A DNA stretch of 62,373 bases from Gemmatimonadales bacterium (GCA_036279355.1 DASUJH010000016.1:1-62373); one strand, 5' to 3'. Counted from the stretch's first letter, positions 2,628 to 20,392 are shown. Made by a program: numbers and translations. The notes: a model not told the origin generated them from the sequence alone.

Positions 2628-4451
2628 ATGCATCGCCGCATCGGTGGACCCGTGATCGCTCGCGTTCGCGCAGTCGGTGTGGTTTCCCTCGTCACGACGC
2701 TCGTGATTGCCGCGGGCTGCGGGCGTCGCGACGCCAATCGAGACGTCGACGTTGCCGTTGCCGGAAGCGACTCGGGTGCTGCCGGCGACACCGGGAACGC
2801 GGCAAAGGCGTCGGCGGCCGGCGATAAGACCGCCGCGGGCGCCGATGCCGCGCTCCGCGCCGCGATGGGCAAGCCCGAGAGCTGGCCCTCCTACGGCCGC
2901 GACTACACCAACCAGCGCTACTCACCGCTCGGCCAGATCACCGCCGCCAACGTCGGCGGCCTCACGCTCGCGTGGCGTTATCACACCGGCATCCCGCACG
3001 CGTTCGAGGCGAGCCCCGTCGTGATGGACGGCGTCATGTACGTCTCGACGCCGCTCAACCACGTGGTGGCCCTCGACGCGCGCACCGGCGAGAAGCGCTG
3101 GGAGTTTGCCGACACGCTCTCCACCACGATCCACTGCTGCGGCGCCGTGAACCGCGGGGTGGCGGTGTACGGCGGGCGGGTGTACATGGGCACGCTCGAC
3201 GGCCGCCTCGTGGCGCTCGACGCGCGGACGGGTCGAAAGCAGTGGGACGTGGTGGTGGGCGAGAACGACCGCGGCTACGCCGTGGACGGCGCGCCGGTCG
3301 CCGCCGACGGCAAGGTGATCGTGGGCGTGAGCGGCGCCGAGTACGGCATCCGCGGCTTCGTGACGGCGTACGACGCCGCGACCGGCCGGCAGGTCTGGCG
3401 CTTCTACACGATTCCGAGCCCGGCCGAAGGCGGCTGGTGGGGCAAGTGGGCCGAGACCGACGCGTTCGGCACCAACCTGAACCGCGACATCGCGCGGGAG
3501 AAGGCCGACAGCGCGCGCTATGCCGACGCCTGGAAGACGGGCGGCGGCTCGGTGTGGCAGGCGCCGGCGGTCGATCGCGACCTGGGGCTCGTGATCTTTT
3601 CCGTGGGCAACGCCTCGCCCGACCTCGACTACACCGTGCGCCCCGGCGACAACCTGTACACCTGCTCCATCGTGGCGGTCGATCTCAAGACCGGCAAGCT
3701 CAAGTGGTATTTCCAGGAGCTGCCGCACGATGCCTGGGACCTCGACGCGATCAGTCCCGTGGTGCTCATGGACGTGACCGACGCGAGCGGGGCGACGGTG
3801 AAGGCCGTAGCGCAAGCCGGGAAGACCGGCTGGGTCTACGTCGTCGACCGCGCCACCGGCAAGCCGATCCGCCGGAGCGATGCGTTCGTGCCGCAGCAGA
3901 ACATATTCGCGCGCCCCACACCCATGGGTGTCCGCATGCTCCCCGGCGCCAACGGCGGCTCCGAGTGGTCCGCGCCCGCCTACAGCCCCGAGACCGGCTA
4001 CCTGTATGTGCTCGGCCTGCACCAGCCGATGTACTACAAGCTGGAGCACGAGCCGCTGCTGCCGCCCGCGTTCTGGCTGGGCGGCGCGTTCTTCGCCACC
4101 GGCGAGCCGCAGTACGGGCTCTTCACTGCGGTGGACCTCAACACCGGCAAGATCGCGTGGCAGAGTCGCGTGGCCGATCCGATGATCGGCGGCGCGCTCG
4201 CCACCGCGGGCGGCGTCGTGTTCACCGGCACCAAGGACCAGCAGGTGCTGGCGTACGACGCGCGCACCGGGCGGCAGCTCTGGAGCTACAAGGCGGACGC
4301 CGGCGTCAACGCGCCGCCCATCACCTACGCGGTGAACGGCGTGCAGTACGTCGCCGTGGCCGCGGGCGGCAACTACCAGATCAACGCGCCTCGGGGCGAC
4401 GAAGTGCTCGTCTTCCGGCTCGACAGCGCGCAGGCGGCGCGAGGCACGTGA
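2628..4451 (+). CDS. PQQ-dependent dehydrogenase, lipoprotein, D-x-D type
   Basis: This 607-residue quinoprotein oxidises an alcohol, aldehyde or sugar in the periplasm and passes electrons to cytochrome c. A signal ending IAAGC places acylated Cys31 at the mature N-terminus, so it is membrane-tethered rather than soluble. Tryptophan-docking propeller repeats recur (VALDARTGEKRWEF, VALDARTGRKQWDV, LAYDARTGRQLWSY). Adjacent cysteines at 170-171 match the redox-active vicinal disulfide of methanol/ethanol dehydrogenases. The catalytic segment is PHDAWDLD, with Asp371 and Asp373; an Asp two residues after the catalytic Asp is the mark of lanthanide-using members of the family. No heme motif is present, so the next gene probably supplies the cytochrome. 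The start is uncertain: GTG at 2652 would also leave a full signal peptide. The stop overlaps the next ATG by one base. Confidence 0.88.
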   Translation: MHRRIGGPVIARVRAVGVVSLVTTLVIAAGCGRRDANRDVDVAVAGSDSGAAGDTGNAAKASAAGDKTAAGADAALRAAMGKPESWPSYGRDYTNQRYSPLGQITAANVGGLTLAWRYHTGIPHAFEASPVVMDGVMYVSTPLNHVVALDARTGEKRWEFADTLSTTIHCCGAVNRGVAVYGGRVYMGTLDGRLVALDARTGRKQWDVVVGENDRGYAVDGAPVAADGKVIVGVSGAEYGIRGFVTAYDAATGRQVWRFYTIPSPAEGGWWGKWAETDAFGTNLNRDIAREKADSARYADAWKTGGGSVWQAPAVDRDLGLVIFSVGNASPDLDYTVRPGDNLYTCSIVAVDLKTGKLKWYFQELPHDAWDLDAISPVVLMDVTDASGATVKAVAQAGKTGWVYVVDRATGKPIRRSDAFVPQQNIFARPTPMGVRMLPGANGGSEWSAPAYSPETGYLYVLGLHQPMYYKLEHEPLLPPAFWLGGAFFATGEPQYGLFTAVDLNTGKIAWQSRVADPMIGGALATAGGVVFTGTKDQQVLAYDARTGRQLWSYKADAGVNAPPITYAVNGVQYVAVAAGGNYQINAPRGDEVLVFRLDSAQAARGT

Positions 4452-5089
4452 TGCGGCGTCTCTCTGGCGCGCTCGCCTTCATCACGCTCGCGCTCACGTT
4501 CGCCGCGCTCGGATTCGCGACGCCGCTTGCCGCGCAGAACTCCCGCGGGTTAACTGCGCCGCCGTCCTCGGCGCCGACCGCCGACTCGACTGGCTTTGGC
4601 GATACGACCGCGGCCGTCGTCGGCCAGAAGGGCCACACCATCGAGGCCGGCCAGGCCACCACGCTGCCGCAGCTGCCCGCCGGCGTCACCCTCGACCTCG
4701 TGCGCGAGGGCGACTCGGTCTTCCACGGCGCGGGCCACTGCTTCGCCTGCCACGGCGCCAACGCGCAGGGCTTGCCCGACGCCGGGTCGGCGCTCACCGC
4801 CGGGCTCAACTTCGTGCCGATCCAGCCGCGGGCCATCGATTCGCTGGTGAGCGTCGGCATTCCCGAAGCGCTCACCCGCTCGGGCATCCGGATGCCGCCG
4901 CGCGGCGGCAAGTCGGATCTCTCCGACGACCAGATCAGGGCGGTGGCCGCCTACGTATGGGCGATCAGCACGGTGAACGGCGAGCCCTGGCCCGGTGGCC
5001 ACGCGTCGCACGACAACATGATTCCGCCCGGCTCGACGGCGGGCACCTCCACGGCGCGTCCCGCCGTCGCGGCGATGCGAAAGCCGTAG
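4451..5089 (+). CDS. periplasmic cytochrome c, partner of PQQ dehydrogenases
   Basis: This 212-residue protein begins with a signal peptide ending near ATPLAAQ. A single class I cytochrome c domain has CFACH at 97-101 and a probable Met axial ligand in the GIRMPPRGG segment, followed by the usual C-terminal helix (DDQIRAVAAYVWAIS). Ser/Pro/Thr-rich linkers flank the domain. It sits between two PQQ dehydrogenase genes and overlaps the first by one base, so it is the likely electron acceptor of one or both, delivering electrons to the downstream caa3 oxidase. It is not close to classical XoxG/MxaG by eye; the assignment rests on the heme motif and context. Confidence 0.88.
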   Translation: MRRLSGALAFITLALTFAALGFATPLAAQNSRGLTAPPSSAPTADSTGFGDTTAAVVGQKGHTIEAGQATTLPQLPAGVTLDLVREGDSVFHGAGHCFACHGANAQGLPDAGSALTAGLNFVPIQPRAIDSLVSVGIPEALTRSGIRMPPRGGKSDLSDDQIRAVAAYVWAISTVNGEPWPGGHASHDNMIPPGSTAGTSTARPAVAAMRKP

Positions 5090-5131
5090 CGCACCCATGT
5101 CCAGGACCCGCTCGTGACCAAGGAACCCAGG

Positions 5132-7006
5132 ATGACCCCAACTCGCGCTGCCATGGGAACCGCGCTCGCGGTGTTGATCGCGGCTGCGGGCGCTTGCTCG
5201 GGCAGCGGCACCGAAACCGGCAGGGCCGGCGTTCCGCGCACCGAGACTGCCGCCGCGGCGGCGTCGGCCAACGGCAGCGAGGGACCCGCCGCCGTGAATC
5301 AGCCCGGCGCGCCGAACGCCGGCGAGTGGACGCTGCCCGGCCGCGACTTTGCCGGCACCCGCTACACGCCGCTCGCGCAGATCACGCCCGCCAACGTGAA
5401 GAACCTCAAGGTGGCGTGGACCTTTTCGACGGGACTCGCGCGCGGCTTCGAGGGCCAGCCGCTCATCGTCGACAACACGATGTACATCGTGACGCCGTGG
5501 CCCAACAAGGTGTTCGCCATCGACCTCACCGATCCCTCGGGTCCGCTCAAGTGGTCGTACAATCCGCCCACCGCGACGGCGGCGCAGGGCGAAGCCTGCT
5601 GCGACGTAGTCAATCGCGGCGCGTCGTACGCGGATGGAAAGATCGTCTTCAACCGGCTCGACAACACGACCGTCGCCCTCGACGCGAAGACCGGGAAGAC
5701 GGCGTGGCAGACCAAGCTCGGTGACATCGCCCTGGGCGAGACGATGACGATGGCGCCGCTCGTGGTGAACGGCCGAGTCTTCGTGGGCAACAGCGGCGCC
5801 GAGCTGGGCGTGCATGGCTGGATCACGGCGCTCGATCTCAAGGACGGCCACATCCTCTGGCGCGCCTACAGCACGGGGCCGGACAGTCTGGTGAAGATCG
5901 GCCCCGACTTCAAGCCGTTCTATGCCGATCTCCGGGGGAAGGACCTCGGCACCAAGACCTGGGCCGGCGATGACTGGAAGCTGGGCGGCGGGACCGTCTG
6001 GGGGTGGGTGAGCTACGATCCCGAGACCGACCTCATCTTCTATGGCACCGCGAATCCGGGCGTATGGAATCCCGACCTTCGCCCGGGGGACAATCTCTGG
6101 ACCGCGGCCGTCTTTGCCCGCGATCCCGCGACGGGCGAGGCACGCTGGGCCTACCAGTACACCCCGCATGACTCGTGGGATTACGACGGAATCAACGAGA
6201 GCATCCCCGTCGACCTGACGATCGACGGCAAGCCCCGCAAGGCGCTGGTGCACTTCGACCGCAACGGCTTCGGCTCGACGCTCGACCGCACCACCGGCGA
6301 GGTGCTGGTCGCGCAGCCATTCAAGTACATCAACTGGTCGACCGGCGTCGACCTCAAGACCGGACGACCGCAGCGGGTGGCCTCGAAGGAAACCCACCAG
6401 GGCATCAACACCCAGGCGATCTGTCCTTCGTCCACCGGCGCGCGCGACCAGCAGCCGGCCGCCTTCTCGCCGCGCACGCACCTGTTCTACACGCCGAGCA
6501 CGAATCTCTGCATGGACTACGAGGGCACCGAGGTGAGCTACATCGCGGGCACGCCATATCTGGGCGCCGAGGTGCAGATGTACGCCGGCCCCGGGGGCAA
6601 GGACGCCCGGGGCGAGTTCCTGGCCTGGGATCCGGTCGCGGGCAAGAAGGTCTGGGGCATCACCGAGCGCTTCCCCGTCTGGAGCGGGCCGGTGGTGACG
6701 GGCTCGGACCTCGTCTTCTACGGCACCATGGACGGCTGGTTCAAGGCCGTCGACGCGAAGAGCGGTACGGAGCTGTGGAAGTTCAAAACCGGCTCGGGCA
6801 TCGTGGGCAATGCGGTCACGTTCATGGGCCCGGACGGCAAGCAATACGTGGCGATCTACTCGGGTGTCGGCGGCTGGTACGGGGCGGTGGCGCTCGGGCT
6901 TTCGCCCAGCGATCCGACGGCCGCGCTCGGTGCCGTCGGGGCGGGGCAGGACCTGCCGCAGTACACTGCGCCGGGCGGCACCGTCTACGTCTTTGCGTTG
7001 CCCTGA
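5132..7006 (+). CDS. PQQ-dependent (XoxF-like) alcohol dehydrogenase, lipoprotein
   Basis: This 624-residue quinoprotein is related to methanol/ethanol dehydrogenases. The vicinal disulfide pair is Cys156-Cys157 in GEACCDVVNRG. The active-site stretch is TPHDSWDYDGINES, with catalytic Asp350 and Asp352 two residues on. Calcium enzymes such as MxaF carry Ala at the second position, while XoxF, ExaF and PedH carry Asp to bind a lanthanide. The signal ends AAAGAC, so Cys22 should be acylated and the enzyme tethered to a membrane, unlike soluble XoxF. ATG 5132 is preferred to GTG 5114 because AAGGA lies seven bases before it. The XoxJ-like gene directly downstream supports membership in the Xox family. 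The substrate could be methanol, ethanol or another alcohol. Confidence 0.9.
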   Translation: MTPTRAAMGTALAVLIAAAGACSGSGTETGRAGVPRTETAAAAASANGSEGPAAVNQPGAPNAGEWTLPGRDFAGTRYTPLAQITPANVKNLKVAWTFSTGLARGFEGQPLIVDNTMYIVTPWPNKVFAIDLTDPSGPLKWSYNPPTATAAQGEACCDVVNRGASYADGKIVFNRLDNTTVALDAKTGKTAWQTKLGDIALGETMTMAPLVVNGRVFVGNSGAELGVHGWITALDLKDGHILWRAYSTGPDSLVKIGPDFKPFYADLRGKDLGTKTWAGDDWKLGGGTVWGWVSYDPETDLIFYGTANPGVWNPDLRPGDNLWTAAVFARDPATGEARWAYQYTPHDSWDYDGINESIPVDLTIDGKPRKALVHFDRNGFGSTLDRTTGEVLVAQPFKYINWSTGVDLKTGRPQRVASKETHQGINTQAICPSSTGARDQQPAAFSPRTHLFYTPSTNLCMDYEGTEVSYIAGTPYLGAEVQMYAGPGGKDARGEFLAWDPVAGKKVWGITERFPVWSGPVVTGSDLVFYGTMDGWFKAVDAKSGTELWKFKTGSGIVGNAVTFMGPDGKQYVAIYSGVGGWYGAVALGLSPSDPTAALGAVGAGQDLPQYTAPGGTVYVFALP

Positions 7007-7013
7007 GCCGGGC

Positions 7014-7994
7014 ATGGGCATGCGCGCGTTTGCCGTTCCGCTCGTGGTGCTGGCGCTCGCCGGCGCGGAGCCGTCGCAGCATCAGCCCGCGCCGGGTGCC
7101 GCGGCTCGTGTCGTGCCGCCCGCGGGTCCGCGCGTGCTCCGCGTGTGCGCCGATCCCGACAACATGCCGTTCTCCAACCGGCGGCTCGAGGGGTTCGAGA
7201 ACCGGATCGTGGCGCTCGTCGCGCGCGACATGGGCGCGAGCGTCGCGTACACCTGGTGGCCCGAGCAGCGCGGCTTTCTCCGGCACACGCTCAACGCGCA
7301 TGCTTGCGATGTCGTCCCTGGCATCTCGGCCGGCGACTCGCGCCTGCTCACCACCGCGCCGTACTTCCGCTCGACCTACGTGTTCGTGTACCGGGCGGAC
7401 CGCGGCTATCACATCAATTCCTTCGACAACCCGGCCCTCCGGCGGCTCCGGATCGGCGTCCACGTGATCGGCGACGACTACAACAGCCTCCCGCCCGGCG
7501 TGGCGCTCGCGCGGCGCGGGCTCGCGTCGCAGGTGGTGGGCTTCAGCATGTACGGCAACTCCACGAAAGATGCCGCGGCGGACCCCGGCGATGCCGCATC
7601 CGCCGACCCCGAGCGGAGCGCACCGTCGGTGCTCATTCGTGCGGTCGCGCGCGGCGACATCGACGTGGCGGTGGCGTGGGGCCCGCTCGCGGGTTACTAC
7701 GCCGCGCGCGATGGCGCGCGGAGCGGGCACCGCCTGCGCGTGGTGCCGGTGCAAGGTGCCGATGCGGGGCCGGCCGGCCGGTTCGTGTACGCCATTGCGA
7801 TGGGCGCCCGCCGCGGCGACTCGACGCTCGTGGCGCAGGTCGACCGCGCGCTCGCGCACCGGCGGGGCGAGATCCATCGAATCCTGAGGCGCTACCACGT
7901 GCCGCTCGTCGGCGATTCCGCGCGGGTCGCCGCCGCGGGGCCGTGTGCACACGGGGCGGAAGTGGCGAAGACTGCGGAGGCGGTATGCGAGTAG
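7014..7994 (+). CDS. xoxJ: XoxJ/MxaJ-like periplasmic binding protein of quinoprotein dehydrogenase
   Basis: This 326-residue secreted protein has the solute-binding fold found beside PQQ methanol dehydrogenases. Recognisable family segments are LRVCADPDNMPFSNRR, FENRIVALVARDMG, YTWWPEQRGFLRHTLNA and CDVVPGISAG, followed by TTAPYFRSTYVFVYR. Members are thought to help mature or activate the dehydrogenase rather than import a solute, and no permease or ATPase is nearby. A weak signal peptide covers residues 1-20. An Ala/Asp-rich insert near residue 185 and a C-terminal tail with two cysteines are not typical. It starts seven bases after the dehydrogenase stop and overlaps the next gene by ten bases, so co-translation is likely. 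ATG 7020 is an equally good start. Confidence 0.85.
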   Translation: MGMRAFAVPLVVLALAGAEPSQHQPAPGAAARVVPPAGPRVLRVCADPDNMPFSNRRLEGFENRIVALVARDMGASVAYTWWPEQRGFLRHTLNAHACDVVPGISAGDSRLLTTAPYFRSTYVFVYRADRGYHINSFDNPALRRLRIGVHVIGDDYNSLPPGVALARRGLASQVVGFSMYGNSTKDAAADPGDAASADPERSAPSVLIRAVARGDIDVAVAWGPLAGYYAARDGARSGHRLRVVPVQGADAGPAGRFVYAIAMGARRGDSTLVAQVDRALAHRRGEIHRILRRYHVPLVGDSARVAAAGPCAHGAEVAKTAEAVCE

Positions 7995-8557
7995 ATGCCC
8001 GGAAGCCCCTCGCGTGGGGTGCGATGGCGGCACTGGCCCTGGCCGGCGCGGCGTGCAACAACTCGCCGAAGCCGAACCGGCAGATGACCGGCCCGCCGCC
8101 GAGCGGCGCGGCGGAAACGGGATTGATGGACGCGAAGGTGGCGGCCGACTCATCGGGCTCCGACGTCTACCGCATGCACCTCGTAGCGGGCGGAGTGCAG
8201 CCCGGCATCCATCCGCACGTGATTTACGGCGAGCGCCACAACCCCTACGGCCAGGACAAGACCGTGCTGACGGAAGGGCGCCGTCTCTTCACCATGTACA
8301 ACTGTTCCGGTTGCCACGGCGGCCACGCCGGCGGCGGCATGGGGCCGAGCCTGCGCGACAGTCTCTGGAGCTACGGCAACACCGACACCCAGCTCTTCGC
8401 CACGATCACCGAGGGGCGGCCCGCGGGCATGCCGGCATGGGGTCCCAAGATTCCGGAAGACCAGATCTGGAAGCTCATCTCCTACATCCGTTCGCTCGAG
8501 ACCTCGCGGGAGCCCGACAAGGTTCCACTCGTGCCGCACGAGGTGAAGATCCAATGA
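7985..8557 (+). CDS. lipoprotein cytochrome c (XoxG-like position)
   Basis: This 190-residue protein has a lipobox AGAAC with Cys24 as the likely anchor, then a linker and one cytochrome c domain with CSGCH at 107-111, a Gly-rich HAGGGMGPSL segment and a probable Met ligand in PAGMPAWG. The C-terminal helix reads QIWKLISYIRSL. Its place directly after the dehydrogenase and XoxJ-like genes corresponds to XoxG/MxaG, so it probably carries electrons from dehydrogenase to oxidase, but as a tethered rather than diffusible carrier. It overlaps the coxB start in an ATGA, which physically joins the dehydrogenase and oxidase genes in one transcript. Confidence 0.85.
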   Translation: MRVDARKPLAWGAMAALALAGAACNNSPKPNRQMTGPPPSGAAETGLMDAKVAADSSGSDVYRMHLVAGGVQPGIHPHVIYGERHNPYGQDKTVLTEGRRLFTMYNCSGCHGGHAGGGMGPSLRDSLWSYGNTDTQLFATITEGRPAGMPAWGPKIPEDQIWKLISYIRSLETSREPDKVPLVPHEVKIQ

Positions 8558-9570
8558 CCCGTGCCGCCGGACGGAGCGCCGCCATCGGCACCGCTGCGTT
8601 CGCGGTCACCGGGTGCGCCGCCGCACCGTCGGTCTTCGACACCCACGGCACCATTGCCAATCGGGTCGCGCCCCTCGGCTGGTACCTCATCATCATGTCG
8701 CTCGTCGTGATGGGGGTGATCATCGTGCTGGTGCTGATGGCGCTCTTCCGCGGCCGTCCTCCGCGCGACACCGAGACCATCGAGCTCGCCGAGCCGCGCA
8801 GCGGCCTCGGCTGGATTCTGTGGGGCGGCATCATCATCCCCGCCATCGTGCTGGCGTTCAGCTTCGTGTTCTCGCTGGTGACGCTCTCCGCCACGGCTCG
8901 GCCGCCGGTCCGCCCCGGCCTCACGGTCGCCATCACCGGGCATCGTTGGTGGTGGGAAGTGAAGTACCTCGATCCCGATGGGAAGCCCGTCATCATCACC
9001 GCGAACGAGATCCACGTGCCGGTCGGGCGGCCGGTGCGGGTCGAGCTCACCTCGGACAACGTGATCCACAGCTTCTGGGTGCCGGAGCTCGCCGGCAAGA
9101 CCGACGTGATTCCGGGCCAGCAAAACGTCGCCTGGCTCGAGGCCACGACGCCCGGGCGCTTCCACGGCCAGTGCGCGGAGTACTGCGGCCTCCAGCACGC
9201 CCACATGCAGCTCGTGGTGGAAGCGGACCCGCCGGCCGAGTTCGATCACTGGATGGCCGGGCAGCGCCAGCCCGCGGCGGAGCCCACCACCTCCCTGGAT
9301 TCGCTCGGGCAGCGCACGTTCGTCGGCCAGGCGTGCTCGCTCTGCCACACGATCCAGGGCACGGCGGCCCACGGCCGGGTGGGCCCCGACCTCACTCACC
9401 TGGCGAGCCGCCAGACGATTGCCGCCGGCACGCTGCCCAACACCCGCGGCAACCTGGCGGGCTGGATCTCCAACACGCAGACGATCAAGCCCGGCAACCT
9501 CATGCCCACGATGTACCTGCACCCGGCCGAGCTGCAGTCGATCGTGGCCTACCTCGAAACCCTGAAGTAG
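8554..9570 (+). CDS. coxB: caa3-type cytochrome c oxidase subunit II with fused cytochrome c (module 1)
   Basis: This 338-residue subunit accepts electrons and passes them to the heme a of subunit I. It has a lipobox AVTGC (Cys21), two membrane helices (about 41-65 and 85-110), a cupredoxin domain with the aromatic GHRWWWE electron-entry patch, and a complete CuA site (Cys207, Glu209, Cys211, His215, Met218). A C-terminal cytochrome c domain carries CSLCH at 261-265 and a likely Met ligand in NLMPTM. This fusion defines caa3 oxidases. It is coupled to the preceding cytochrome gene by an ATGA overlap and lies ten bases before subunit I. Confidence 0.95.
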   Translation: MTRAAGRSAAIGTAAFAVTGCAAAPSVFDTHGTIANRVAPLGWYLIIMSLVVMGVIIVLVLMALFRGRPPRDTETIELAEPRSGLGWILWGGIIIPAIVLAFSFVFSLVTLSATARPPVRPGLTVAITGHRWWWEVKYLDPDGKPVIITANEIHVPVGRPVRVELTSDNVIHSFWVPELAGKTDVIPGQQNVAWLEATTPGRFHGQCAEYCGLQHAHMQLVVEADPPAEFDHWMAGQRQPAAEPTTSLDSLGQRTFVGQACSLCHTIQGTAAHGRVGPDLTHLASRQTIAAGTLPNTRGNLAGWISNTQTIKPGNLMPTMYLHPAELQSIVAYLETLK

Positions 9571-9580
9571 CGGAGCGTCC

Positions 9581-11518
9581 GTGGCCACCCTCGCTCCTCC
9601 CGCCCCCGCGGTCGACGATCGGCTCACCAGGATCTGGGAGACGCCCCGGGGCATCGGCGGCATGCTGTCGACGGTCGATCACAAGACGATCGGCAAGCGC
9701 TACCTGGTGACGTCGTTCGTCTTCCTGGTGCTGGGCGGCGTCGAGGCGGCGGTGATGCGGGCGCAGCTCATCCACTCGAACCTGCGGCTCGTCTCGCCCG
9801 AGGTGTACAACCAGCTCTACTCGATGCACGGCGTGACGATGATGTTCCTCTATGCCTCGCCGGTGCTCTCGGGCTTCAGCAATTACCTCTGGCCGCTCCT
9901 GATCGGCTCGCGCGACATGGCGGTCCCCCGGCTCAACGCGCTGAGCTACTGGATCTTTCTCGCGTCGGGGATCTTCCTTTACTCGAGTTTCCTCGTGGGC
10001 CAGGCGCCGAACGACGGCTGGTTCGCGTACGCGCCGTTCTCGCTCCGGCCGTACGACCCCGGGCTCAACATGGACTACTACGCGCTCGGGCTCGTCTTTC
10101 TCGCCGTCTCGACGACGGTGGGGGCGATCAACTTCATCGTCACCTTCTTCAAATTGCGGGCGCCCGGCATGTCGGTGAATCGGGTGCCGATCATCATGTG
10201 GGGGACGCTCACCGCTTCGGTCGCGATCATCTTCTCGCTCTCGTCGCTCACCGTCGCGTGCATCTACCTCTTCTTCGAGCGCCGCTTCGGGATGCACTTC
10301 TACGACCCCGCGGCCGGCGGGCAGCCGCTCCTCTGGCAGCACCTCTTCTGGATTCTGGCGCACCCATGGGTCTACGTGGTCGTGCTGCCGGCGATGGGCA
10401 TCGTCTCCGACGTGATCCCTACGTTCGCCCGCCGGCCGCTCGTGGGCTACACCTTCGTGGCGCTCGCCACCGTGGCCACCGGCATCCTGGGCTTCGGCGT
10501 CTGGGTGCACCACATGTTCGCGACCGGGCTGTCCGAGATGTCGCTCAGCTTCTTCGGCGCGGCGAGCATGGTGATCGCGATCCCGAGCGCGGTGGCGGTC
10601 TTCGCCTGGATCGCCACGATATGGACCGGGCGGCCGGTGTTCACCACCGCGTTCCTCTTCATGGCGGGGTTCATCATCCTGTTCGTGATCGGCGGCGTAT
10701 CGGGGGTCGTGACGGCGGCGGTACCGTTCGACTGGCAGGTGACCGACACCTACTTCGTGGTGGGCCACATCCACTACGTGCTGATCGGGATCAACGTGTT
10801 CCCGGTGGTCGGTGGCCTCTACTACTGGCTGCCCAAAATGACCGGGCGGATGCTGAGCGAGCGGCTCGGGAAGTGGAACTTCTGGGTGATGTTCGTCGGC
10901 TTCAACCTCGGCTTCTTCCCGATGCATATCTCGGGGCTGCTGGGGATGCCGCGGCGCATCTACACCTATCCCTCGGGGCTCGGCTGGGACACCGCGAACC
11001 TGATTACGAGCATCGGCGCGTACCTCTTCGCGGTCGGCGTGCTGCTCTTCGTGATCAATTTCTTCTGGAGCCTCCGGCGCGGCCGCGTGGCGGGTCCGGA
11101 TCCATGGCGCGGTCCGTCGCTCGAGTGGTCCACGTCTTCACCACCGCCGCCCTACAACTTTGCGGTGATCCCCACCGTGCGGAGCGCGTACCCGATGTGG
11201 GAGCGGCCCGAGCAGCGGGAAGAGGCGGGGAAGGAGCCGAGTCAGCTCGATCGTGGCCCGGTGCTCGATCAGGGCCGGGAGACGGTGGGCACCAGCTCGC
11301 TCGACGGTGAGCCGCTCGCCGTCCTCCAGATGCCGAGCGATTCGTACTGGCCGTTCCTGCTGGCGTTCTCGCTGCTGGTGCTGTTCTTCGGATTGCTCGC
11401 TCCGGTGTGGGCGCTCGTCGTGATCGGCGGCGTAGGGCTCCTCGTCTGCGTGATCGGCTGGCTCTGGCCCACCCGCGAGGAGCGCGAGCTCGCGATGCGC
11501 GAGGAGGCGGCCGCATGA
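9581..11518 (+). CDS. coxA: cytochrome c oxidase subunit I (module 1), atypical proton-channel residues
   Basis: This 645-residue heme-copper oxidase core has about 14 membrane helices. Heme a ligand His lies in SMHGVTMMFL, the CuB histidines in HPWVY (His261) and WVHHMF, and the heme a3 region in GHIHYV. Tyr265 of the His-Tyr cross-link is present. The D-channel entrance Asp is kept (Asp112 in RDMAVPRLN), but the inner Glu of HPEVY is Trp263, and the K-channel Lys of PTGIKVF is Ala339. It has neither the A1 Glu nor the A2 Tyr-Ser pair. The C-terminal 150 residues add a loop and two extra helices, as in caa3 enzymes. It starts with GTG and overlaps subunit III by ATGA. Confidence 0.95.
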   Translation: MATLAPPAPAVDDRLTRIWETPRGIGGMLSTVDHKTIGKRYLVTSFVFLVLGGVEAAVMRAQLIHSNLRLVSPEVYNQLYSMHGVTMMFLYASPVLSGFSNYLWPLLIGSRDMAVPRLNALSYWIFLASGIFLYSSFLVGQAPNDGWFAYAPFSLRPYDPGLNMDYYALGLVFLAVSTTVGAINFIVTFFKLRAPGMSVNRVPIIMWGTLTASVAIIFSLSSLTVACIYLFFERRFGMHFYDPAAGGQPLLWQHLFWILAHPWVYVVVLPAMGIVSDVIPTFARRPLVGYTFVALATVATGILGFGVWVHHMFATGLSEMSLSFFGAASMVIAIPSAVAVFAWIATIWTGRPVFTTAFLFMAGFIILFVIGGVSGVVTAAVPFDWQVTDTYFVVGHIHYVLIGINVFPVVGGLYYWLPKMTGRMLSERLGKWNFWVMFVGFNLGFFPMHISGLLGMPRRIYTYPSGLGWDTANLITSIGAYLFAVGVLLFVINFFWSLRRGRVAGPDPWRGPSLEWSTSSPPPPYNFAVIPTVRSAYPMWERPEQREEAGKEPSQLDRGPVLDQGRETVGTSSLDGEPLAVLQMPSDSYWPFLLAFSLLVLFFGLLAPVWALVVIGGVGLLVCVIGWLWPTREERELAMREEAAA

Positions 11519-12111
11519 CCACCGCCGCCATCGCCACCGAGCTGCCCCGCGACGGCCGGGGCAGACACGCGCTCGGCTGGTGGGGAATGGTCTTCCTCGT
11601 CGTGAACGAGGCGACCTTCTTCGCGTACCTCCTGTTCAGCTACTTCTACGTGGCCTCGGCTGCCCGCGGCACCTGGCCGCCGAGCGGCTCGCCCGAGCTC
11701 AAGATCGCGCTCCCCAACACGATCATCCTGCTCATCAGCAGCGGCACGATGGTCTGGGCGGAGCGCGGCATCACCCGCGGCGATCAGGAGCGGCTCCGCA
11801 TCGGGCTCCTGATCACGTTCCTGCTCGGCGCGCTCTTCATCGTGCTGCAGGGCATCGAGTACGGCAACAAGATGTTCACGCCGCAGTCGGACGTGTACGG
11901 CTCGCTCTTCTTCACCATCACCGGTTTTCATGGCGCCCATGTCGTCGCGGGGCTCCTGATGAACCTTTTCGTCCAGGTGCGCGCCTGGGCGGGGCACTTC
12001 ACGGCCCGGCGCCATCTCGCCGTCTCGAACGTGGCCCTCTACTGGCACTTCGTCGACGTGGTCTGGCTCTTCGTGTTCGCCTCGCTCTACATCGCGCCCC
12101 GGCTGGCATAG
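11515..12111 (+). CDS. coxC: cytochrome c oxidase subunit III (module 1)
   Basis: This 198-residue protein has five membrane helices, the short form of subunit III that lacks the first two helices. Family landmarks are the acidic FLVVNEATFFAYL helix, QGIEYG, TGFHGAHVVAGL and the C-terminal YWHFVDVVWLFVF. The subunit stabilises the core and lies near proton entry to subunit I. ATG 11515 overlaps the subunit I stop as ATGA. A nine-base gap separates it from the next small gene. Confidence 0.93.
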   Translation: MTTAAIATELPRDGRGRHALGWWGMVFLVVNEATFFAYLLFSYFYVASAARGTWPPSGSPELKIALPNTIILLISSGTMVWAERGITRGDQERLRIGLLITFLLGALFIVLQGIEYGNKMFTPQSDVYGSLFFTITGFHGAHVVAGLLMNLFVQVRAWAGHFTARRHLAVSNVALYWHFVDVVWLFVFASLYIAPRLA

Positions 12112-12120
12112 GGGGCCCGC

Positions 12121-12534
12121 ATGACCCACGCGGACACGACGGCGCGGCAGCCGATCAGCGACTGGATGCTCTGGATCACGCTCATGGGCGTGCCGCTGCT
12201 CTGGTCCATCCAGGCGCTGGTCGACACCGCGATCATCGGCCATGCCTGCTTCCCGCGCTCGATGCCGTTGTCGCAACCGGCGCCCGGTGCCTGGACGGCC
12301 GCGCTCATCATCACCCTGATCCTTCTGGCGCTTGCCATCGTGATCACGGTGTATGCGGTGCGCAACTGGCGGAGGATCGGCGCGGAGCAGGCCCACCGCG
12401 GCAGTACAGTGCAGGCGCAGCAGGAGGGCCGCGTGCCGTTCATGGCGTTCTCCGGGGTGCTCTTCAGCGTGCTGTTCCTGTACGGGATTGTGATGAACGG
12501 GCTGTCGCTCTTTCTGGTATCGGCGTGCGGATGA
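12121..12534 (+). CDS. small three-helix membrane protein of the oxidase operon
   Basis: This 137-residue protein has three predicted membrane segments (about 16-38, 60-82 and 105-130) joined by short polar loops. I do not recognise a named family. Its spacing (nine bases after coxC, then a four-base overlap with an in-frame start of the following cytochrome) makes it part of the oxidase operon. Small membrane proteins in this position may act as subunit IV-like or assembly partners. A protein of similar design is encoded in the second module at 18965. Confidence 0.75.
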   Translation: MTHADTTARQPISDWMLWITLMGVPLLWSIQALVDTAIIGHACFPRSMPLSQPAPGAWTAALIITLILLALAIVITVYAVRNWRRIGAEQAHRGSTVQAQQEGRVPFMAFSGVLFSVLFLYGIVMNGLSLFLVSACG

Positions 12535-12554
12535 GGCGGAGGGAGACCAACGGC

Positions 12555-13034
12555 ATGAACACGAGGGACGATGGAGCGATGCGCCGTGGGCGCCGAGAGC
12601 GTTCGGGCGGCAGGGTGCGGGCGGTCACGCGGGGCGCGGCCTACTCCGCGTTCGTGGCCGGCGCGCTCGGCCTGGCCGGCATGCTGGCCGGGCTCACCGG
12701 GTGCGGCAACGGCAACGCGGATGCCGTGGAATCCGGCCGTGCCGCCGTTCCCGGCGGTGATGCCGACCGCGGGAAGCAGGAGATCGTGGCGTACGGCTGC
12801 GGCACCTGTCACATGATCCCGGGCGTGGACAACGCCAATGGGCTGGTCGGGCCGCCGCTCCTCAAATTCGGCCGGCGCACGTACATCGCGGGCGAGGTGC
12901 CCAACACGACGGACTTCCTCATCCGATGGCTCGAGGTGCCACAGGCCATCGAGCCGGGCACCGACATGCCCAATCTGGGCATCACCGAGCAGCAGGCGAG
13001 GGACATCGCTGCCTACCTCTATACGCTGCGGTAG
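12555..13034 (+). CDS. lipoprotein cytochrome c
   Basis: This 159-residue class I cytochrome c has the lipobox GLTGC with Cys50 as anchor and one heme site CGTCH at 82-86. The Met ligand is probably in GTDMPNLG, and the last helix is QARDIAAYLYTLR. ATG 12555 is chosen because GGAGGGAG precedes it by about 11 bases; an ATGA-coupled ATG at 12531 would add eight residues. The domain resembles the small cytochromes fused to subunit II and probably feeds the oxidase. It ends the first respiratory cluster. Confidence 0.85.
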   Translation: MNTRDDGAMRRGRRERSGGRVRAVTRGAAYSAFVAGALGLAGMLAGLTGCGNGNADAVESGRAAVPGGDADRGKQEIVAYGCGTCHMIPGVDNANGLVGPPLLKFGRRTYIAGEVPNTTDFLIRWLEVPQAIEPGTDMPNLGITEQQARDIAAYLYTLR

Positions 13035-14138: not shown

Positions 14139-15215
14139 TCAGCGGACGAAGAAGAACGCGGTGCCGAGAAGGGCGTACACCGCGAGCAGGAGTACGCCCT
14201 CGAACCACGTGGTCTCGCCGTCCTGTGCGATGGCGTTCACGGTGAATGCGGCGCCGGCGATCGCGATGAGCTCGAGCGGATTCGCGAAGACGAGGTTCAT
14301 TGCGTCCCCGAGAGCCCACGAGACGAGCACGAGCACCGGTGCCGTGAGCAGCGCGATCTGAATGCTCGACCCCACCGCGATCGACATCACCAGGTTCATC
14401 CGGTTCTGCCGGGCGAAGTAGATGGCGGCGAAGAATTCGGCCGCGTTACCGATGAGCGGCAGCACGATCACGCCGACGAAGAACGGCGTGAGCCCGAAGC
14501 GTTGCGCGGCGGACTCGAGCGCGCCTGAGACCAGCGCGGCCTCGAGCGCCACGGCGGCCGTGGCGGCGACCAGGATCCCGATGGCGGCCCATGCGGACCA
14601 GGCCGGCTTGCCCATCTCCTCGCCCCCGGCCGCAAAGACATCGCGCCGGCTCACCAGCGTGTACACGAGATTCGCGCCATAGGCCAGAATGAGCACCACC
14701 GCGACCCCGAGACTCAGGCGCTCGTCCAGCGCCCCCGCGTTCGGCACGCCGCGCAGGCTCCGCTCCGTGTAGTCGAAGAGCGCCGGCACGAGGAGCGCGA
14801 TCACCGACAGGATAAAGAGGCTCGCGAGCAGGCCCGCGCGCTCCCGCTTGAACCTCTGGACATCCCGACCCCAGCTCCCGACCACGATGGCGAGCCCGAG
14901 CCCGAGCAGGCTGTTGCCGACGATCGATCCGGTGATCGTCGCCTTCACCACCGCGGGCTTGCCGCTGGCCAGGACGAAAAGCGCCAGGATCAGCTCGGCG
15001 GCGTTGCCGAAGGTGACGTTGAGCAGCCCCCCGGCGGCCGGCCCGAAGCTCGCCGCCAGCGCCTCGGTGCCGCGCCGGATCCAGTCGGCGAGCGGCACGA
15101 TGGCGACAGCGGAAGCGACGAATACCCACGTGGGCGGCGCGCCAAAATGGCTCATGGCGAGCGAGAGCGGCACCAGCAGGAGCGCGCCGTAGCGGACCAC
15201 GCGGCCGAGGCTCAT
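14139..15215 (-). CDS. cax: Ca2+/H+ antiporter (CAX family)
   Basis: This 358-residue protein has about 11 membrane helices in two homologous halves. Each half has the cation-binding alpha repeat: VTFGNAAELILAL in the first and PLIGNAAEFFAAIYF in the second, with the Glu residues that define calcium/cation exchangers. It probably extrudes Ca2+ in exchange for protons at the inner membrane. ATG 15215 places the start just before the first hydrophobic segment; an in-frame GTG at 15272 would add 19 polar residues. It is transcribed opposite to the second oxidase module, with 178 bases between the starts. Confidence 0.9.
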   Translation of the reverse strand: MSLGRVVRYGALLLVPLSLAMSHFGAPPTWVFVASAVAIVPLADWIRRGTEALAASFGPAAGGLLNVTFGNAAELILALFVLASGKPAVVKATITGSIVGNSLLGLGLAIVVGSWGRDVQRFKRERAGLLASLFILSVIALLVPALFDYTERSLRGVPNAGALDERLSLGVAVVLILAYGANLVYTLVSRRDVFAAGGEEMGKPAWSAWAAIGILVAATAAVALEAALVSGALESAAQRFGLTPFFVGVIVLPLIGNAAEFFAAIYFARQNRMNLVMSIAVGSSIQIALLTAPVLVLVSWALGDAMNLVFANPLELIAIAGAAFTVNAIAQDGETTWFEGVLLLAVYALLGTAFFFVR

Positions 15216-15393
15216 CGGCCACAATAACCCGGGGAGGGCGCGGGGGCGGGTGACCTGCCGCACAGCAACCACGCGCCGTCGCCGCCCACTTTGGTGGCAC
15301 GCACGGCACGTCGTGGCCGCCGGTGCGGCAGCTCGAGGCTACTCGCATGCGCGGTGAGGACACCGTGTTTCTTGATGGTCGGCTGCACGCCCG

Positions 15394-16398
15394 ATGAGCG
15401 GATTCCCGCTGCTCCATCCCACCGGCATCCAGTCGGCGCGCATCGCCGCGCTCCTCATAGGCATCATGGCCGCGGGCGCCGCGGTGTATCTCATCACGCT
15501 GCTCGTGCTCGCGCTTGCGGTCCGGCACGGATGGCGGCGGGCGCGCGCCGAAGGCGGCGCCGAGCCGGGCAGCGCACCCGGCGAGCCGACGCCCTCCGTT
15601 GCGCCGGACGCCGAGCGACGGCTCGGGCGCGTGGTGCTGGGCGCGGCGCTCCTCACCGCGCTGGTCCTCTTCATCTACATCGGCGCGAGCGCGCGCACCG
15701 GCCGCGCGCTCAACCTGCTCGCCCAGGCGCCGCCCGGCGCGCCGGAGCCGGTCACGGTGTCGGTCACGGGGCACCGCTGGTGGTGGGAGTTCACCTACAA
15801 GAAGGCGAGGCCGCTCGAGCATCTGGTCACCGCGAACGAGCTGCATGTCCCGGTCGGGCGCACGGTTCACCTCGTCGGGACGTCGTACGACGTGATCCAC
15901 AGCTTCTGGGCGCCCAACCTCCACGGCAAGCGCGATCTCATCCCCGGCTACAGCAGCGAAGCCTGGTTCCGCGCCGACACGCCCGGCGTCTGGACCGGCG
16001 AGTGCGCCGAGTTCTGCGGCTTGCAGCATGCGCACATGCGCTTCGTCGTGGTGGCGCAGTCCGATGCGGACTACGCGGCGTGGTATGCCGGCCAGCTCGC
16101 GCCGGCCGCTGAGCCCATCGAGACGTCGCGCGCGCACGGCGAGCAGGTCTTTCTCGCCCATAGCTGCTCGCTCTGCCACACGATCCGCGGCACGCCGGCC
16201 GGCGGGCGCCTCGGCCCCGACCTCACCCACGTCGGCAGCCGCGCGCAGATTGCCGCCGGCCTCCTGCCGAACACGCGCGGCAACCTGGCCGGCTGGATCC
16301 TCGATCCGCGCACGCTCAAGCCGGGCACGCCCATGCCGGCGACATCGCTCTCATCATCCGACCTCAATAGTCTGGTCGACTATCTGGAAGGGCTCTGA
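15394..16398 (+). CDS. coxB: caa3-type cytochrome c oxidase subunit II with fused cytochrome c (module 2)
   Basis: This 334-residue second subunit II has two membrane helices (about 17-45 and 80-102), the GHRWWWEF aromatic patch, a complete CuA site starting CAEFCGLQHAHM (Cys204, Cys208), and a C-terminal cytochrome c with CSLCH at 258-262. Unlike the first copy it has no lipobox; the N-terminus goes directly into a helix. An acidic Gly/Pro-rich loop links the helices. The cytochrome domain resembles that of the first copy closely (LLPNTRGNLAGWI against TLPNTRGNLAGWI), so the two modules are related paralogs. The stop overlaps the next ATG by one base. Confidence 0.95.
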   Translation: MSGFPLLHPTGIQSARIAALLIGIMAAGAAVYLITLLVLALAVRHGWRRARAEGGAEPGSAPGEPTPSVAPDAERRLGRVVLGAALLTALVLFIYIGASARTGRALNLLAQAPPGAPEPVTVSVTGHRWWWEFTYKKARPLEHLVTANELHVPVGRTVHLVGTSYDVIHSFWAPNLHGKRDLIPGYSSEAWFRADTPGVWTGECAEFCGLQHAHMRFVVVAQSDADYAAWYAGQLAPAAEPIETSRAHGEQVFLAHSCSLCHTIRGTPAGGRLGPDLTHVGSRAQIAAGLLPNTRGNLAGWILDPRTLKPGTPMPATSLSSSDLNSLVDYLEGL

Positions 16399-18347
16399 TG
16401 ACACCGGCCGAGCCGGCGCTCGCCGCCGCCTCCACCGCCGGAGCCCCGAGCGCGGCCGAGGATGCAAAGGTGCGCCAAACGCTCGAGCGGACCTGGCGCA
16501 ACCCGCCCGGCCTCTGGGGCTGGATTACGTCGGTCGACCATAAGTCGATTGCGCTCCGCTACATCATCACGGCGCTCGCGTTCTTTCTCGCCGCCGGCAT
16601 CCAGGCGGCGCTCATGCGCCTCCAACTCGCGCGCCCGGACGGGCACGTGCTGAGCCCCGACCGCTACAACCAGTTCTTCACGACCCACGGCTCGACGATG
16701 ATGTTCCTCTTTGCCGTGCCGGTGATGGAGGCGATGGGGCTCTTTCTCGTGCCGCTCATGATCGGCACCCGCAACGTCGCCTTTCCGCGACTCAACGCGT
16801 ACGGGTACTGGACCTATCTCATCGGCGGACTCTTCATCTACGTCTATCTCTTCGCCAACAACGGGCCCGACGCCGGCTGGTTCGCCTACGTGCCGCTTTC
16901 GGGCCCCGAGTTTTCGCCCAGCAAGCGGGTCGATGTGTGGGCGCAGATGATCACCTTCACCGAGATCGCCGCCATCGTGGGCGCGGTGGAGCTCATCGTC
17001 ACCGCGTTCAAGCAGCGGGCGCCGGGGATGTCGCTCGACCGGGTGCCGCTCTTCGTCTGGGCCATGGTGATCACCGCGTTCATGGTGCTGTTCGCCATGC
17101 CGGTGGTCGCGTCGGCCAGCATGATGCTCGCGATGGATCGCCTCGTGCACACCCGGTTCTTCGACGTGACGATGGGCGGCGACGCGATCTTCTGGCAGCA
17201 CCTCTACTGGTTCTTCGGGCATCCGGAGGTGTACATCACCTTTATCCCGGGCCTAGGCATCATCTCGTCGATCGTGGCGACGTTCAGCCGCCGGCCGGTC
17301 TTCGGCTACACCGCGGTGGTGCTCTCGATGATCTCCGTCGCTTTCCTGAGCTTCGGCCTCTGGGTGCACCACATGTTCGCGACGCCGCTGCCCCAGCTCG
17401 GCCAGACCTTTTTCACGGCGGCGAGCGCGATGATCGCCATCCCCACCGGCATCCAGCTCTTCTGCTGGATCGCGACCCTCTGGTCCGGCCGCCCGCGGCT
17501 CGAAGTACCGCTCCTGTATGTGCTCGGATTCTTCGTGATCTTCGTGCTGGGCGGCATGACGGGGCTCGTCCTGGCCTCCGTGCCGGCCGACCTGCAGGTC
17601 ACCGACACCTACTTCGTGCCCGGCCACATCCACTACGTGATGCTCGGCGGGATGGTGTTCCCGCTGCTCGGCGGTTTCCATTACTGGTTCCCCAAGGCGA
17701 CCGGCCGCCTGCTGCACGAAGGCTGGGCGCGGGTGCAGTTCTGGCTGCTCGTGATCGGCGTCAACGTGACGTTTTTCCCGTTCTTTCTGCTCGCGCTCAA
17801 GGGGATGCCGCGGCGCGTTTATACCTATCCCGCCGAGAGCGGCTGGGGCGGGTTGAGCCTCGTGGCGACGCTCGGTGCTGGGCTCATCGCGCTCAGCATC
17901 CTCGTCTTTCTGGGCAACGTCCTGTGGTCGCTCCGCCGCGGCCGGGTGGCGGCCGCCGATCCCTGGGGTGGCGAAACGCTGGAGTGGGCCACCGATTCGC
18001 CCGCGCCGCCCTATAACTTCGCGCGCCTGCCGGTGGTGCGTGGCCGTTCGGCGCTCTGGGACGCCGGCCCCGTGCACGAGGTGACGACGGGACTCTCCGA
18101 CCACCGGCGCGAGGTGCTGCTCACCACCATGCTCGATGCGGTGCCCGACGTGCGGCACACCCAACCCTCGCCCACGGTGGCGCCGCTGCTGCTGGCGCTC
18201 GCTACCGGTGTGACGCTCGTACCCGGCATCTACACCGCGTGGGCATTCGTCTTCGGGCCGGCGCTCGCCTTCCTCGCCCTCCTCGTGTGGGCGTGGCCCC
18301 GCGGTGCGGGCAGGGCGCCGCCCGAAGTCGTCGAGGTGCCGCGGTGA
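16398..18347 (+). CDS. coxA: cytochrome c oxidase subunit I (module 2)
   Basis: This 649-residue heme-copper oxidase core keeps the ligands in TTHGSTMMFL, HPEVY (His275, Glu277, Tyr279), WVHHMF and GHIHYV. It has the A1-type Glu277 but replaces the D-channel entrance Asp by Asn126 (TRNVAFPRLN) and the K-channel Lys by Gln353 (PTGIQLF). Two extra C-terminal helices follow a polar loop, as in the first module. It is joined to subunit II by a one-base overlap and to subunit III by a GTGA overlap. Compared with the first module, the two enzymes differ at exactly the positions that shape proton delivery. Confidence 0.95.
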   Translation: MTPAEPALAAASTAGAPSAAEDAKVRQTLERTWRNPPGLWGWITSVDHKSIALRYIITALAFFLAAGIQAALMRLQLARPDGHVLSPDRYNQFFTTHGSTMMFLFAVPVMEAMGLFLVPLMIGTRNVAFPRLNAYGYWTYLIGGLFIYVYLFANNGPDAGWFAYVPLSGPEFSPSKRVDVWAQMITFTEIAAIVGAVELIVTAFKQRAPGMSLDRVPLFVWAMVITAFMVLFAMPVVASASMMLAMDRLVHTRFFDVTMGGDAIFWQHLYWFFGHPEVYITFIPGLGIISSIVATFSRRPVFGYTAVVLSMISVAFLSFGLWVHHMFATPLPQLGQTFFTAASAMIAIPTGIQLFCWIATLWSGRPRLEVPLLYVLGFFVIFVLGGMTGLVLASVPADLQVTDTYFVPGHIHYVMLGGMVFPLLGGFHYWFPKATGRLLHEGWARVQFWLLVIGVNVTFFPFFLLALKGMPRRVYTYPAESGWGGLSLVATLGAGLIALSILVFLGNVLWSLRRGRVAAADPWGGETLEWATDSPAPPYNFARLPVVRGRSALWDAGPVHEVTTGLSDHRREVLLTTMLDAVPDVRHTQPSPTVAPLLLALATGVTLVPGIYTAWAFVFGPALAFLALLVWAWPRGAGRAPPEVVEVPR

Positions 18348-18961
18348 GCGCGCCGTCCGCCATCCGCCCGGTGGTCGATCTCTCGGATCTCCCGAGTGTC
18401 GCATTCGGTTCGCGCGACGTGCTCTGGTGGGGCGTAATCGGGTTCATGATCGTGGAGGGAATGACACTCGCCTGCGCCGCCGCCGCATGGTTCTTCCTGC
18501 AGCGAGACGCCGCCGCGTGGCCGCCGCCCGGCACGCCGCTCCCCGGGCTCGTCATCCCGACCATCAACCTCGCCATATTGCTCGCCTCGCTCGTGCCCTA
18601 CGGCATCCTCGACCGTGCGGCCAAGCGGCTCGACGCCCCGGCCACCACCCGCTGGCTCTGGATCTCGACCGCTTTCGGCGCCGCCACGGTGGTGCTCCGC
18701 TGGTTCGAGCTGCGTGCGGTGCACGTGAGCTGGGACGGCAGCGGCTATGGCTCGGCCGTGTGGGCCGTGCTCGTCGGACATTACACGCTGCTCATCGTCG
18801 ACCTGCTCGAAACCGGCACCAGCGCGGTCATCTTTGCCGCCGGCGACTACGAGCCCAAGCACTTTCCCGATGCGAGCGACAACGTGTTCTATACCCGCTT
18901 CATGGTGCTCGTGTGGGTGCCGCTCTATGCGATGGTGTACCTCTTGCCCCGCTGGATCTGA
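18344..18961 (+). CDS. coxC: cytochrome c oxidase subunit III-like protein (module 2)
   Basis: This 205-residue protein has five predicted membrane helices, the short subunit III layout. The helix with FMIVEGMTLACAAAAWFFL carries the conserved acidic residue, and the segment with WAVLVGHYTLLIVDLLETG replaces the usual HGAHV helix. It diverges more from textbook subunit III than the first module's copy but its place after subunit I supports the call. GTG 18344 overlaps the subunit I stop as GTGA. The next gene starts three bases after its stop. Confidence 0.8.
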   Translation: MSAPSAIRPVVDLSDLPSVAFGSRDVLWWGVIGFMIVEGMTLACAAAAWFFLQRDAAAWPPPGTPLPGLVIPTINLAILLASLVPYGILDRAAKRLDAPATTRWLWISTAFGAATVVLRWFELRAVHVSWDGSGYGSAVWAVLVGHYTLLIVDLLETGTSAVIFAAGDYEPKHFPDASDNVFYTRFMVLVWVPLYAMVYLLPRWI

Positions 18962-18964
18962 CCG

Positions 18965-19414
18965 GTGAGTGCCCCTCCCATCGTCCGCCCCGCGGCGCCG
19001 CCGCGCGAGCATCCGCCGGTCTCCAATCTCGCGGCCTGGGCCGGAGTGCTGCTCGGACCGGTCGCGTTCGTGCTGAACCATCTGGCGCTCACGTTCGCGG
19101 AGCCGTCGGCGTGCACCAACGATGCGCAGCTTCCGCTTGACCTCATTGCGCTCGTGACCTTTCTCATCGCCCTTGCCGGCGTGGCGATCGCCTGGCGCAC
19201 CTGGGGGCGCGCCGGACGCAGCGATGCTGCCGGACGCAGCGATGCTGCCGACCGCGCCGACCGCGAGTGGCCCCGTGCCGGCGCCGGCGGCCCGCTCGGT
19301 CGGACGCGATTCATGGGCGCGCTCGGATTCATCCTGAGCGTGCTCTTCGCGACCGTCGTGATCGCGCAGTGGATACCGATCACGATGCTGCCGCTTTGCG
19401 GAAGCGCTGGATGA
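18965..19414 (+). CDS. small membrane protein of the second oxidase module
   Basis: This 149-residue protein has three hydrophobic helices (about 20-42, 57-77 and 118-140), with a low-complexity, charged linker between helices two and three. The linker contains two exact copies of an 18-base DNA repeat. I do not recognise a family. By layout it matches the three-helix protein after subunit III in module 1 (12121-12534): both contain a conserved-looking tail ending near a Cys-Gly. It begins with GTG and its stop overlaps the ctaG start as ATGA. Confidence 0.7.
   Translation: MSAPPIVRPAAPPREHPPVSNLAAWAGVLLGPVAFVLNHLALTFAEPSACTNDAQLPLDLIALVTFLIALAGVAIAWRTWGRAGRSDAAGRSDAADRADREWPRAGAGGPLGRTRFMGALGFILSVLFATVVIAQWIPITMLPLCGSAG
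19211..19246. repeat. two tandem copies of an 18-base unit within a gene
   Basis: Two exact copies of an 18-base unit encode the repeated residues GRSDAA inside the linker of the small membrane protein. The unit length is a multiple of three, so copy number can change without a frameshift. Confidence 0.8.
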
Positions 19415-20382: not shown

Positions 20383-20392
20383 ACGCCCCGCA

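Follow-up and report, generated by a model that had tools for sequence, protein, structure and literature searches.

A predicted XoxF3-type alcohol oxidation chain in a Gemmatimonadales genome and the altered proton-channel residues of its caa3 oxidase

A 62,373-nucleotide stretch from a Gemmatimonadales bacterium (GCA_036279355.1 DASUJH010000016.1:1-62373; hereafter the window, with positions counted from its first letter) carries two quinoprotein genes and a cytochrome oxidase in one run. Do these genes encode a respiratory chain from alcohol to oxygen, and is that chain of the lanthanide-dependent type? The original prediction for this DNA had proposed both, and the gene run that it described at 2628-13034 is real: ten open reading frames lie in series on the + strand, with gaps of at most 42 nucleotides and several overlaps. 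The stop codon of QP1 (TGA) and the ATG of cytA share one nucleotide at 4451, XoxJ and cytB overlap by about 10 nucleotides, and cytB/coxB and coxA/coxC overlap by 4 nucleotides each. We estimate at roughly 80% the probability that the genes of this run specify a chain of XoxF3 type, very probably dependent on lanthanides, for the oxidation of methanol (short-chain alcohol) with a dedicated oxidase. It is a known kind of system in a variant form, and its oxidase has an under-described feature. The genes and their predicted products are as follows.

2628-4451, + strand: QP1, pyrroloquinoline quinone (PQQ) alcohol dehydrogenase with a lipobox-type N-terminus, 607 residues, WDLD (D371/D373); not a XoxF, in a clade of its own
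4451-5089, + strand: cytA, c-type cytochrome with a Sec signal and without a lipobox, repeatedly found paired with QP1 (QP1-cytA module)
5132-7006, + strand: QP2, XoxF3-type quinoprotein methanol/alcohol dehydrogenase, 624 residues, WDYD (D350/D352), lipobox-type N-terminus
7020-7994, + strand: XoxJ homologue, quinoprotein-associated periplasmic binding protein (TIGR03871)
7985-8557, + strand: cytB, XoxG-like c-type cytochrome, lipobox-type N-terminus
8554-9570, + strand: coxB, oxidase subunit II of caa3 type, having a CuA motif and a cytochrome c domain at its C-terminus; lipobox-type N-terminus
9581-11518, + strand: coxA, oxidase subunit I with Trp at the Glu278 position (AHPWVY) and Ala at K354 (PSAVAVF); His ligands and Tyr280 kept
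11515-12111, + strand: coxC, oxidase subunit III
12121-12534, + strand: coxD, small protein of 137 residues, hydrophobic in places, that matched no family
12555-13034, + strand: cytC, c-type cytochrome, lipobox LTG-C

We first consider the active sites of the quinoproteins. The Asp-x-Asp motifs lie exactly where they had been predicted, as W370-D371-L372-D373 in QP1 and W349-D350-Y351-D352 in QP2. Alignment with solved enzymes showed that both proteins have the adjacent Cys pair, which had also been claimed, the metal ligands Glu and Asn, the catalytic Asp and a further Asp at +2, a position occupied in the same alignment by Ala in MxaF, Ser in ExaA and Thr in the quinohaemoprotein alcohol dehydrogenases (ADHs). 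The site string of QP2, CCENDYDR, is identical to that of the lanthanide enzyme 4mae. That of QP1 is CCENDLDK, with Lys at the catalytic Arg position as in quinohaemoprotein ADHs.

The placement of QP2 agrees with its active site. It scored 642.9 bits against TIGR03075 (cut-off 480), and in a PDB sequence search it matched 4mae with 719 bits and the Ca-type MxaF enzymes with at most 557. FastTree placed it in a 78-sequence clade (support 1.0) apart from the XoxF1, XoxF2, XoxF5 and MxaF references, with the structures 4mae, 7o6z, 6oc5, 6dam and 4tqo all outside, and IQ-TREE on a reduced set joined QP2 to its nearest relatives with support 100. These results indicate that QP2 is a true XoxF, belonging to the XoxF3 clade and having a ligand set predicted to be of the lanthanide type. 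The solved structure nearest to it, XoxF2 of Methylacidiphilum fumariolicum SolV (4mae), shares its fold and ligand set but is a methanotroph enzyme from another XoxF clade.

The surroundings of QP2 are also conserved. Among 62 XoxF loci with enough flanking sequence, from Gemmatimonadota, Acidobacteria, Proteobacteria and Verrucomicrobia among others (a set distinct from the 62 oxidase sequences described below), 50 have coxA (COX1) on the same strand within 8 kb. Clade members share the order XoxF-XoxJ-cytochrome c-coxBAC-hypothetical-ctaG-cytochrome c, which a Mesorhizobium plasmid matches exactly (XoxF, XoxJ, cytochrome c, coxB, ctaD, cox3, hypothetical, ctaG, cytochrome c). In the window, the XoxJ assignment was upheld by a TIGR03871 score of 251.8 bits (cut-off 212), and that of a caa3 oxidase by the COX2 and Cytochrom_C domains, CuA and CXXCH of coxB. 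The window and the conserved clusters thus bear out the co-encoding of QP2 with XoxJ, a XoxG-like cytochrome and a caa3 oxidase. The claim of tethered cytochromes between the quinoproteins and the oxidase held in part: cytB, with its lipobox, is the sole cytochrome between QP2 and the oxidase, while cytA sits between the two quinoproteins and has a cleavable signal without a lipobox, and the third, cytC, follows the oxidase.

The linkage of XoxF3 to an oxidase, the main claim of the original prediction, is therefore correct but known. The XoxF3-XoxJ-XoxG-coxBAC cluster has been published (PMC10875860, with Keltjens et al. 2014 cited there), and PQQ enzymes in COX operons are described in PMC4013037. 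The source is a soil-type Gemmatimonadota genome with the known XoxF3 arrangement: the published clusters of Acidobacteria and Gemmatimonadetes likewise combine XoxF3 with XoxG, XoxJ, CoxI-III, a small hypothetical protein, CtaG and cytochrome c, and coxD occupies the position of their 110-130-residue hypothetical protein between CoxIII and CtaG. The window differs from them in having QP1-cytA in front and a second caa3 oxidase behind, with which ctaG lies. Its XoxF3 has a lipobox, and neither the word 'lipoprotein' nor a channel analysis was found in the text of PMC10875860. The second operon (15394-20382) begins 2.4 kb downstream of the first oxidase.

15394-18347, + strand: coxB2 and coxA2 of the second caa3 oxidase (coxA2 at 16398-18347)
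18239-18961, + strand: coxC2, start uncertain
18965-19414, + strand: coxD2
19414-20382, + strand: ctaG, assembly factor (PF09678, 211 bits)

In the chain that we propose, the PQQ-lanthanide site of QP2 would oxidise methanol or another short-chain alcohol in the periplasm, and the electrons would pass one at a time to cytB and on through coxB, by way of its cytochrome c domain and its CuA, to O2 at coxA. XoxJ may aid the maturation or docking of QP2, and QP1 with cytA would be a separate alcohol dehydrogenase module that supplies the same oxidase or pool of cytochromes. The genome carries pqqC, pqqE and fae. A host lacking PQQ, with 'empty' quinoproteins (TIGR04528), was rejected, since the score was below the cut-off and pqqC and pqqE were found. 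Two further tandem XoxF genes lie elsewhere in the genome (G000:C28:161457-167142, L170); they belong to a XoxF5-like Gemmatimonadota clade and have no lipoboxes, and fae is on the same contig (193 kb).

Several points weigh against the proposed chain. The IQ-TREE support for the wider XoxF3 grouping was only moderate (77, with 57 and 50 inside), and named XoxF3 sequences from the literature were absent from the tree. The PDB search yielded no XoxF3 structure, and according to PMC10875860 there were no biochemical data on XoxF3 as of 2024. Asp-x-Asp by itself is no proof of lanthanide use, least of all for QP1, nor is co-encoding proof of electron transfer.

What, then, is QP1? Both FastTree and IQ-TREE put it in a clade separate from XoxF, MxaF, PedH/ExaA and the quinohaemoprotein ADHs, and its identity as a XoxF was rejected on these two trees. 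The original view of both quinoproteins as XoxF-like and of the lanthanide type thus stands for QP2, with its clade and full ligand set, and not for QP1. Two other identities were discarded as well, that of PedH/ExaF because PedH and ExaA pair together in IQ-TREE with QP1 apart, and that of a type II quinohaemoprotein ADH because QP1 consists of the PQQ propeller domains without a fused C-terminal cytochrome c, its cytochrome being the separate gene cytA. The solved structures nearest to QP1 in sequence and fold are quinohaemoprotein ADHs (1yiq, 1kb0, 1kv9) and PedH (6zcv). QP1 differs from these in lacking a fused haem domain, in having Asp at +2 rather than the Thr of the quinohaemoprotein ADHs, and in falling outside both clades.

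Because QP1 forms a separate clade, its use of lanthanides is a weaker inference than that for QP2. Two close relatives have lost the +2 Asp, L137 with Ala (and Asp in place of the Glu ligand) and L144 with Ser, which points to a possible switch of metal preference among family members; for this reason we regard lanthanide use by QP1 as only moderately likely. QP1 could instead be an alcohol or polyol dehydrogenase dependent on Ca or another divalent metal, with a D-x-D like that of membrane glucose dehydrogenases. The placement outside the XoxF, PedH/ExaA and quinohaemoprotein groups, the Lys at the catalytic Arg position, these two relatives, and the nearest folds, which are Ca-type quinohaemoprotein ADHs, all point that way. 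Yet QP1 has the full set of ligands (Glu, Asn, Asp, Asp), which most of its family also conserves, and lanthanide use by D-x-D families outside XoxF has been argued, as a proposal, in PMC11996626. On balance we give the Ca-type alternative a substantial chance, though somewhat below even. Structure prediction for QP1 gave a mean predicted local distance difference test score of 74, with the catalytic loop at low confidence (residues 338-340 below 50).

The QP1 sub-clade comprises the window protein and those of G003, G198, L035, G361 (69%), G369, G375 and G259, mostly followed by a cytA homologue. The pair is found within or next to a XoxF or cox cluster in the window, G003, G198, L035, G361 and G369, and no XoxF/cox link was seen nearby on G259:C64 or on the short G375 contig. 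Ideonella and Alloyangia also carry related pairs of QP1 and a cytochrome. QP1 is predicted from its family to be a second alcohol-oxidising enzyme, placed before the known XoxF3 system. A second linkage of the QP1 family with XoxF was observed in L135, L138, L139, L200 and L201, where a XoxF-XoxJ pair is preceded, at a distance of about 3-4 kb, by a family member without a cytA homologue.

The most unusual feature of the locus was missed by the original prediction and appears to be new here: the XoxF-linked oxidases lack canonical proton-channel residues. A1-type oxidases are defined by Glu278 of the D-channel and Lys354 of the K-channel (PMC3084760; Paracoccus numbering here and below). A score of 690.4 bits against TIGR02891 (cut-off 670.75) places coxA among the A-type haem-copper oxidases in the broad sense. 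When it was aligned with the solved mycobacterial COX1, AHPWVY fell on GHPEVY and PSAVAVF on PTGIKFF, giving Trp at the Glu278 position and Ala at the Lys354 position, which is outside the A1 definition.

We compared 62 COX1 sequences, namely 61 from XoxF loci (the window coxA and 60 from elsewhere) and the window coxA2, which lies 9 kb from XoxF. Lys354 was missing in all 62. The E278W change was found in 19, including the window coxA, and all of these have Asp or Glu at D124; the other 43 keep E278, and 39 of them have no acid at D124 or are gapped there. The window coxA2 keeps Glu278, but K354 is replaced by Gln and D124 by Asn. Apart from one gap, all the sequences conserve Tyr280 and the six haem/CuB histidines that were examined, and S291 is kept in nearly all. 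The 62 sequences form one clade (support 1.0) with two branches, E...Q and W...(A/S/T/Q); coxA2 falls on the branch of the XoxF3-linked oxidases of other phyla, and the window coxA on the other.

As a control, one COX1 was taken from each of 30 Gemmatimonadota genomes (C49 for the genome that contains the window), and E278 and K354 were present in 30 of 30. Each control was the best TIGR02891 scorer of its genome, and this selection may be biased towards canonical enzymes. Among 246 evenly sampled genomes of the class there were 12 close coxA homologues, 11 of them clustered with XoxF or, at a contig end (G198:C34), with XoxJ and a XoxG-like cytochrome; the homologue in G160 had no XoxF on its 12-kb contig. 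No earlier report of channel-residue loss in XoxF-linked oxidases was found in the literature searched, subscription journals being outside its scope. The COX operon type a-II of PMC4013037 resembles these loci in often containing a PQQ methanol dehydrogenase; it differs in being an operon type of Proteobacteria, and loss of D- or K-channel residues was not found in the part of that paper available. We infer that the type a-II oxidases are XoxF3-linked oxidases.

On one possible interpretation, the caa3 oxidases linked to XoxF3 would pump weakly or not at all and act as a rapid sink for electrons, drawing their protons by a different route, perhaps from the periplasm, into which alcohol oxidation releases them. 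This concerns the working mode of the oxidase and is compatible with the proposed XoxF3 chain. The loss of K354 and of either E278 or the D124 acid across nearly the whole clade, together with intact redox ligands and canonical COX1 in related genomes, is what such a mode would lead one to expect. Pumping cannot be told from sequence, because A2- and B-type oxidases pump despite altered channels (Tyr for Glu in A2, an altered K-channel in B; PMC3084760), and new acids, such as the Glu at the N199 position of many coxA2-type sequences, may form other paths. A B-type-like alternative K-channel fits poorly, as S291 is kept in nearly all. Weighing these points, we think the weakly coupled or non-pumping mode somewhat less likely than not.

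The lipoboxes predicted on both quinoproteins are present, though of a permissive type (VIAAG-C31 in QP1, AAGA-C22 in QP2), and further lipobox-type N-termini occur in cytB (AGAA-C), coxB (VTG-C) and cytC (LTG-C). Lipid-anchored XoxF enzymes had been called unusual, a view rejected for Gemmatimonadota XoxF3 on the lipobox counts: 12 of 17 sequences satisfy a strict lipobox rule, and visual inspection suggests a lipobox in 3 others. The strict rule holds for 11 of 60 sequences in the rest of the XoxF3 clade and for 2 of 27 in other XoxF clades, both from a Gemmatimonadota group adjoining XoxF3 in the tree; under it, none of the XoxF5-like paralogues of the same genome has a lipobox. None of the lipobox proteins of the window has Asp after the Cys. 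In E. coli such lipoproteins go to the outer membrane, a rule that may not hold in Gemmatimonadota. The evidence does not support the proposal of an electron chain that lacks a soluble carrier: cytA, with its cleavable signal, looks soluble, and the sorting rule of E. coli may not apply in this phylum.

A broader proposal would take the XoxF3-linked caa3 oxidases as an A-type clade without canonical proton channels that provides uncoupled or weakly coupled sinks for periplasmic rare-earth alcohol oxidation in several phyla, the Gemmatimonadota chain being lipid-anchored with a second, non-XoxF quinoprotein input; taken as a whole, we think this unlikely. That the run is instead a loose pile-up of respiratory genes, with QP1-cytA unrelated to the oxidase, is improbable: the two sub-clade members lacking XoxF/cox neighbours and the broader QP1 family, which stands alone in Proteobacteria, would fit it, but the core order is kept across phyla and QP1-cytA recurs beside XoxF/cox in other genera and another family, on either side of the cluster.

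Three neighbouring genes were also observed. About 100 nucleotides upstream of QP1, on the same strand (1319-2524), lies a lipobox-type beta-propeller protein with weak SMP-30/ScyD-like similarity, whose homologues also precede XoxF in G045, G047 and G176. Between the two oxidase operons (14139-15272, - strand) is a membrane protein that reads as Ca2+/H+ exchanger-like. Directly after ctaG, a gene of the formate/nitrite transporter family (20390-21229, PF01226) may be linked to one-carbon metabolism.

XoxF3 was the most often assembled methanol dehydrogenase type of soil in one survey (340 of 411 sequences, PMC10875860). If its oxidase is non-pumping, soil methanol oxidation would yield less energy than has been assumed. 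Related clusters are present in cultured bacteria (Mesorhizobium, Methylocella, Microvirga, Sphingomonas and Azohydromonas), and the non-pumping reading is therefore testable. Both oxidase types are represented among them, the coxA2 type in Mesorhizobium sp. B1-1-8 and the E278W type in Methylocella tundrae. If it is true, this channel-altered clade of A-type oxidases would be a natural test of which residues are truly needed.

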